From Candidatus Peregrinibacteria bacterium GW2011_GWF2_39_17 (GTDB lineage Bacteria; Patescibacteriota; Gracilibacteria; UBA1369; UBA12473), in assembly GCA_000993615.1 (NCBI GenBank), contig LBWM01000001.1, positions 87,970-151,969 on the forward strand: 64,000 nt of DNA. Direction: 5' to 3'. Within the stretch, counting starts at the first letter, position 1. Each line of letters begins with the position of its first letter. The translations under genes and the position numbers were made by a program. The notes below the pieces were generated by a model that worked only from the letters and a program-made list of their open reading frames with translations, had not been told where the DNA came from and did not search any database. This document shows, in pieces, positions 43,056 through 44,688 of this stretch.

Positions 43056-43084
43056 AAAAAAACCGCAGGATAACTAAATCCTAC
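43056..43084 (-). terminator. intrinsic terminator of recA-recX
   Basis: On the minus strand GTAGGAT pairs with ATCCTGC (one G-T) around a 6-base loop, followed by a run of seven T. It lies between the recX stop and the nusA start. A TATAAA box on the same strand (43086-43091) suggests that nusA initiates just upstream, so the hairpin may also lie in the nusA leader. Confidence 0.62.
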
Positions 43085-43109: not shown

Positions 43110-43619
43110 CTAACTTAATAAATATTTGTCAATGACATCCCTGCAAGTCTCCAAATTAAATCCCCGTGACTTTAGGAAATTAAATATTTTTTGGCGTTGA
43201 ACAAAAGGGGGTAAGGTGTGAAGGCGCAAAAGTTTTTTAAGGATCACTTTTTCGGCAAGGATATTTTCATCCAGGGGATTTTCTATCCAGAATTTTTCAA
43301 TAATGGGATTTGGTATGCCACGGTTTTTAAGTTCTTGGGTCAAAAAGTATTTTCCTCTTGGTTTTAAACGACATCTTTCTTCTATAAAGCGTTTCGTAAA
43401 ATCAAAATCATCCAAATATTTTAATTCAACTAGCTTGTTAATTACCTGAATAGTAATTTCGTCCGATTGCCTAGGATTTAGTTTGAGTAGTCGTTGGGTT
43501 AGTTTTTCTTTTAGGCGCTGCACCGAATAGGATCTTTGGCTCAAAAGGCTTAGTGCACAGGTCATTAATTTTTGATAAAAAGGATTAATTTTTGCGCTTG
43601 ATTTTGGCAAGTGATCCAT
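43110..43619 (-). CDS. recX: regulatory protein RecX
   Basis: Modulator that binds the RecA filament and limits its activity. The helical three-repeat pattern is visible: ALSLLSQRSYSVQRLKEKL, VINKLVELKYLDDFDFTKRFIEE and KPRGKYFLTQELKNRGI. 169 aa is normal. Its ATG shares one base with the recA stop codon, so it is coupled to recA. Confidence 0.92.
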   Translation of the reverse strand: MDHLPKSSAKINPFYQKLMTCALSLLSQRSYSVQRLKEKLTQRLLKLNPRQSDEITIQVINKLVELKYLDDFDFTKRFIEERCRLKPRGKYFLTQELKNRGIPNPIIEKFWIENPLDENILAEKVILKKLLRLHTLPPFVQRQKIFNFLKSRGFNLETCRDVIDKYLLS

Positions 43620-44623
43620 TATTTAGCCATTTTAACTTTTTCCATTACTATTTTGTATAATTCCTTGGTTACTTTTGGGTTTTGTTCTAAAAATAATTTA
43701 GCATTTTCTCGTCCTTGTCCTAGCTTTAATTCTTTATAATTATAGAAAGCACCGGAGCGATGTATGAACTCGTATTGGGTAGCTAGATCTAATAAATCAC
43801 CGCTAGAAGAAATTCCCTTGGAATACATAATATCAAATTCAGCAACTTTAAAGGGTGGGGCTATTTTGTTTTTGACTACATTAACTCGTACGCGATTACC
43901 GGTAAGTTCCTTGCCGCTTTCAGCAGAAGTTTCCACTTTTCCAATGCGACGGATATCCATCCTAACGGAAGAATAAAATTTAAGGGCTTGCCCCCCTGGT
44001 GTTGTCTCTGGATTTCCATACATCACTCCTATTTTCATGCGAATCTGATTGATAAAAATGACCGCTACCTTTGATTTACTAATGGCAGCAGTCAATTTAC
44101 GTAAAGCTTGGCTCATGAGGCGGGCTTGGAGTCCCATGTGCGAATCACCCATTTCCCCTTCAATCTCTGCCCTTGGGGTTAAGGCTGCTACTGAATCCAC
44201 TACAATCACATCAACTGCATTGGAGCGCACCAATGTCTCGGTAATTTCCAAGGCTTGTTCCCCATTATCTGGTTGGGAAATTAAAAGATTATCCAAATCC
44301 ACGCCTATTTTGCGAGCGTATTCCGGATCAAGGGCATGCTCCGCATCAATAAAAGCCGCGCAACCGTTATTTTTTTGAGCTTCAGCAATAACATGCAAGG
44401 CTAGGGTGGTTTTACCGGATGATTCTGGTCCATAAATTTCCGTGACTCGCCCCTTGGGAACTCCACCCCCTAAGGCTACATCAAGGGATAAGGCTCCGGT
44501 AGAGATGGTTTCTATCTGCACAATTTTCGCTTCGCCCATTCTCATAATGGCTCCCTTTCCAAAGTTTTTTTCAATTTGAGAAAGCGCGAGATCAATAGCT
44601 TTATTTTTTTCGTCATTAGTCAT
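43619..44623 (-). CDS. recA: recombinase RecA
   Basis: Strand-exchange ATPase of homologous recombination and SOS signalling. Walker A GPESSGKT (65-72), the catalytic glutamate segment [10 protein letters not shown], Walker [13 protein letters not shown] and loop L2 after [15 protein letters not shown] are all intact; the 334-aa length is typical. It starts the recA-recX unit. The promoter directly upstream is overlaid by a perfect 8+8 inverted repeat. Confidence 0.98.
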
Positions 44624-44659: not shown

Positions 44660-44688
44660 ATCATAGGTGAGTATTTACTCACCGTCAA
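44660..44688 (-). promoter_or_regulatory. recA promoter with operator palindrome filling the spacer
   Basis: On the minus strand: -35 TTGACG (44683-44688), a 17-base spacer, -10 TATGAT (44660-44665). The inverted repeat GGTGAGTA-TT-TACTCACC (44666-44683, plus-strand reading) occupies the whole spacer. A repressor bound here would block RNA polymerase, as LexA does on recA genes; the sequence is neither the CTGT-N8-ACAG nor the GAAC-N4-GTTC type. Start codon about 30 nt past the expected transcription start. Confidence 0.8.

Follow-up and report, generated by a model that had tools for sequence, protein, structure and literature searches.

The closest described systems are the known LexA/RecA SOS regulons, and the locus analysed here shares with them a canonical LexA, a palindromic predicted operator in the promoters of lexA, recA and Y-family polymerases, and a core of SOS genes. 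Operator sequence varies among lineages, and 17 lineage-specific LexA motifs had been reported by 2021 (PMC8565304). The box found here, GGTGAG-N6-CTCACC, is unlike the E. coli box CTGT-N8-ACAG (read as GTGA-N8-TCAC, it shares the E. coli spacing but not the bases) and unlike the Gram-positive GAAC-N4-GTTC, as the initial annotation of this DNA had stated for both. It also differs from the Bdellovibrio motif TTAC-N3-GTAA, the Geobacter motif GGTT-N10-AACC and the alphaproteobacterial direct repeat GTTC-N7-GTTC. A lineage-specific motif at the box of a canonical LexA is a known kind of variation. For the same superphylum, Sanchez-Osuna, Barbe and Erill reportedly asked the same question in 2017 in a study of the DNA-damage-inducible network of Patescibacteria, and the GGTGAG-N6-CTCACC motif may already be contained in that work.

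The recA promoter palindrome and its copy at lexA

The window, that is, the whole 64,000-nucleotide stretch of DNA that was analysed, carries recA on the minus strand with its ATG at 44623. Positions 44660-44688 span the recA promoter from the -35 through the -10 hexamer: TTGACG (44688-44683), a 17-nt spacer and TATGAT (44665-44660). The palindrome GGTGAGTATTTACTCACC at 44666-44683 occupies this spacer. It is composed of two perfect 8-nt arms around TT/AA (GGTGAGTA-TT-TACTCACC) and extends over the entire 17-nt spacer plus the final base of the -35 hexamer. The features of the locus are as follows:

44666..44683, minus strand: predicted LexA (SOS) box of recA, GGTGAGTAAATACTCACC; duplicated exactly before lexA in this genome, and found as a motif before recA and lexA across the order
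44683..44688, minus strand: TTGACG, the recA -35 hexamer, whose final base is also the first of the box; TTGAC precedes 80/80 exact lexA/recA boxes
44660..44665, minus strand: TATGAT, the recA -10 hexamer; 76/79 exact sites have TA...T after the box
43619..44623, minus strand: recA, 334 aa, co-protease sensor of the SOS response; TIGR02012, 540 bits (cut-off 325)
43110..43619, minus strand: recX, 169 aa, whose start and the recA stop overlap; Pfam RecX domains scored above cut-off
43065..43084, minus strand: terminator-like hairpin between recX and nusA; weak, from a consensus scan alone

Because the recX start overlaps the recA stop, recX is probably co-transcribed with recA. The hairpin at 43065..43084 probably marks the end of this unit, although the evidence for it is weak, since the number of such hairpins found was about that expected from shuffled sequence.

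The palindrome alone proves nothing, because perfect palindromes of such size are not rare: the window holds about ten. At up to three mismatches, the recA palindrome was the sole match in the window, with a chance expectation of 0.04. These results bear out the initial annotation, which had described the TTGACG-17-TATGAT promoter with a palindrome spanning its spacer and had found no further copy within the window; the second copy lies on another contig.

A pattern search of the whole genome (G000; 1.31 Mb in 15 contigs, 98% complete) retrieved one further, letter-identical copy of the 18-mer at G000:C6:80517-80534. This copy lies in the lexA promoter, TTGACG-17-TAATAT, at the same promoter position as in recA, and thereby supports the earlier proposal that the palindrome is the SOS or SOS-like box of this lineage. 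The lexA promoter leads into a 54-aa reading frame and then lexA (G000:C6:79598-80260, 221 aa), and a Y-family polymerase gene (448 aa; PF00817, 156 bits) starts 24 nt past the lexA stop. With up to one mismatch allowed in the core GGTGAG-N6-CTCACC, no site beyond those at recA and lexA was found in the 1.31 Mb. Weaker sites with a -35 hexamer present and three mismatches numbered three, vs one control match, and were treated as noise. The core SOS genes behind the box in this genome are recA and lexA, together with the Y-family polymerase by operon position, and the predicted SOS regulon would comprise two operons, recA-recX and small peptide-lexA-Y-family polymerase.

Conservation in the order and variation in the class

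In the order (Candidatus Peregrinibacteria), lexA and recA loci were taken from up to 59 genomes and the DNA upstream of them was scored, with family f15 excluded from the counts that follow. Upstream of lexA, the 12-base core was exact at 36 of 50 loci and matched at 11 or more of its 12 bases at 47 of 50; the corresponding figures upstream of recA were 44 and 46 of 48. An exact core match occurred in 0 of 4900 dinucleotide-preserving shuffles, and the reversed motif used as a control at the lexA and recA loci never reached 11/12. The promoter frame was conserved together with the core: TTGAC stood immediately 5' of all 80 exact lexA/recA sites and TA...T 3' of 76 of the 79 that were aligned, with an order-wide consensus of TTGAC-GGTGAGTRYRYACTCACC-TATAAT, and all 80 exact boxes sit between -35 and -10 without exception. 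The outer arms are constant at these sites, in contrast to the six bases between them, which vary. Some lexA promoters in families f3, f7, f9, f11 and f12 carry degenerate boxes only.

Nearly every relative in the order has the box before recA, and the distribution of the box is not that of a randomly scattered sequence, with two sites in G000 and, summed over 89 order genomes, 292 exact core sites vs 3 for the backward control. The motif with an attached -35 was detected in 16 of 17 sampled order members and in none of the 363 genomes from elsewhere in the phylum.

The genes behind the box in relatives form, at their core, an SOS gene set. The umuDC genes lie directly behind a box in G003 and G029 (one mismatch in each box), Y-family polymerases behind their own boxes in G019 and G044, radA/sms behind boxes in several relatives, rmuC in G013, a PIF1-like helicase in G019, and dinD and Bro-N proteins in many relatives; an AntA antirepressor and a Fic protein are also found in this position. 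The search of the genome and of related genomes of the Candidate Phyla Radiation that the initial annotation had proposed has therefore yielded the box at lexA and recA here, and at umuDC and Y-family polymerases in relatives.

Several further observations concern copies of the box elsewhere. Many lexA promoters of the order (e.g., L008, L012 and L031) carry a second box over the -10/start region, as a rule 23 nt further downstream than the first, which suggests tighter self-control of lexA; at this position the G000 lexA promoter keeps one half-site only. In G003 (L162:1579-1764, 61 aa) and G036 (L172), a short protein stands alone behind an SOS box and weakly resembles the helix-hairpin-helix (thumb) domain of Y-family polymerases. 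G005 contains GGTGAGGTTTTACTCACC four times in identical form (C15:205, C25:6166, C98:263 and C113:9755), in some cases near contig ends, which suggests a repeated element carrying the box.

In several genomes, exact or near-exact GGTGAG-N6-CTCACC sequences precede a multi-copy HNH-nuclease-like family (L155, L156, L159, L164-L165, L168-L171, L176 and L178-L183; L159, for example, is a phrog_119 HNH). Because these boxes have no adjacent -35, some copies may not be LexA operators: either the nuclease genes are under SOS control or the palindrome serves another purpose there. In viral contigs the promoter-box pattern gave 7 matches, and the reading frames around five were listed (L289, L290, L292, L293 and L295). 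We regard the five examined as chance matches, as their neighbours are genes of unrelated phages, most of the sites lie inside coding frames, and the collection is huge.

In other families of the class, the boxes before lexA take other forms: GTGTACG-N2-CGTACAC-like in family f18, the Gram-positive-like GAACAAATGTTC type in f21, GTATAC-N5-GTATAC in f17, and a tandem GGTGA-type box in G429. At L188, L189 and L199, also outside the order's families, the lexA promoter has a GAAC-N4-GTTC box of Gram-positive-like type or what is left of one; the same class contains other box types as well. The LexA reading frames of families f166 and f170 contain many in-frame TGA codons, as expected for TGA-recoded Gracilibacteria/Absconditabacteria.

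LexA as the predicted reader of the box

The lexA product encoded on G000:C6 is the only full-length canonical LexA of the genome (TIGR00498, 188 bits, cut-off 111). It contains the LexA_DNA_bind domain (PF01726, 59 bits, cut-off 23.7) and the Peptidase_S24 domain (PF00717, 107 bits, cut-off 23.3), and its best PDB matches are all LexA repressors. The cleavage bond A108-G109 and the catalytic residues S144 and K181 are invariant among 21 aligned relatives. Within a collection of named records, its nearest relatives, at 53-60% identity, are mostly from Candidatus Peregrinibacteria (e.g., GW2011_GWC2_39_14), with one from Peribacteria and one assigned to the Patescibacteria group alone. The genome also encodes a second LexA-like S24 protein (G000:C12:9593-10159, E 9e-10), which has its own promoter; no SOS box was seen at this gene.

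Family f15 links the box to the protein. It is nested within the order on both the LexA tree and the RecA tree, and in 6/6 of its genomes the recA box reads T[AG]TGAG-N6-[CT]TCA[CT]A, the outer bases having changed from GG to T[AG]; the lexA boxes have drifted likewise. In the same six genomes the LexA recognition helix reads SDGF[IV][VI]HC in place of SDN[SG][IV]LKHL. In the alignment with E. coli LexA, the changed positions fall in the helix that reads the DNA, and the contact role of that helix is established. This co-change supports LexA as the reader of the box, as a strong association rather than proof, because it represents a single evolutionary event.

Since an identical site fronts lexA and the same pattern recurs at both genes across relatives, sequence comparison identifies the palindrome, almost certainly, as the LexA operator (SOS box) of recA in this Candidatus Peregrinibacteria genome. 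We infer that LexA physically binds the box, that this binding represses the promoter, and that DNA damage induces it. A LexA dimer lying across the promoter spacer would block RNA polymerase at recA-recX, and LexA would also repress its own operon of small membrane peptide, lexA and Y-family DNA polymerase. Upon DNA damage, RecA would be loaded on single strands and LexA would cut itself at Ala-Gly, so that both promoters would be freed.

The leading alternative is that a different repressor, of TetR or Xre type or the second S24-type regulator, co-controls recA and lexA through this site. Palindromes of this kind are used by many repressors, and a second S24 candidate is indeed encoded in the genome. 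We nevertheless consider this explanation improbable: the motif accompanies lexA and recA throughout the order and drifts with the LexA recognition helix in f15, the second S24 gene lacks a visible box, and the genes under the box are the classic LexA set. The initial annotation had left the choice between a divergent LexA and another repressor. Its lineage-specific motif has held up, whereas an aberrant LexA has not, the protein being a canonical LexA whose recognition helix is distinct; the option of another repressor has become unlikely in view of the order-wide link to lexA and recA and the helix co-change in f15.

A perfect inverted repeat can also fold, and the palindrome could accordingly be an RNA or DNA structural element of recA and lexA, such as an attenuator or a protein-binding hairpin, rather than an operator. 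The position of the box makes this far less credible still, as each of the 80 exact copies falls in the -35/-10 interval, ahead of the point where transcription should start; in addition, there is no Rfam match, and the six spacer bases are variable whereas the outer arms are not. That the recA copy is a chance palindrome, one more among the ten or so of its size in the window, is virtually inconceivable given the exact duplicate at lexA and the recurrence across the order, and the counts already refute chance.

The small peptide before lexA and the significance of the predicted regulon

Under the LexA-operator reading, the first gene that the lexA box would control is the 54-aa frame between the box and lexA (C6, L370:4797-4961, minus strand), which ends in QSKLF. 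A frame of 53-58 aa occupies this position in families f1 (G000 and G001) and f10 (G010, G022 and G039). Elsewhere among the 89 order genomes no convincing score was obtained, the profile search beyond f1 and f10 giving weak matches only, and comparison with database families gave no match. Codon differences are concentrated at third positions, and dN was below dS in every pair with computable dS, which indicates that the small peptide is a real gene.

The peptide has a single hydrophobic N-terminal helix (one membrane pass), a strongly basic stretch and a net charge of +8 to +12, and seven alignment columns are invariant, two of which are the C-terminal LF. Four of the five tails read QSKLF, QLRLF, QKTLF and QATLF, and the fifth HSTLF; the Y-family polymerase of the same operon carries QATLF near its C-terminus. 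Bacterial clamp ligands bear QL[SD]LF-like pentapeptides. A tentative and rather doubtful reading of these sequences is that the gene encodes a previously undescribed SOS-induced membrane microprotein, whose QxxLF might bind the sliding clamp and tether or withhold it at the membrane during DNA damage. By analogy, the ordinary alternative would be a division inhibitor like YneA of B. subtilis, SosA of S. aureus or SidA of Caulobacter, which the peptide resembles in size, in its one membrane helix and in a LexA-controlled promoter (predicted here). It differs from them in having no detectable family membership and in ending in QxxLF, a pattern of sliding-clamp ligands; we know of no such ending in YneA, SosA or SidA. 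If the clamp reading were true, one operon would hold a replication-level checkpoint alongside the repressor and the translesion polymerase with which the peptide might work.

The predicted regulon is near the smallest possible, with the sensor, its modulator, the repressor and a translesion polymerase in two operons. Across the class, the boxes form a series (GAAC-N4-GTTC-like, GTGTACG-N2-CGTACAC, GGTGAG-N6-CTCACC and TRTGAG-N6-CTCAYA) in which the recognition helices differ as well, and this provides, within one class, natural material for tracing how the recognition code of a repressor shifts. Taken together, these results fix the predicted SOS operator for an order of ultra-small Candidate Phyla Radiation bacteria about whose regulation very little is known, and the candidate damage-inducible genes of its genomes can now be read from sequence.
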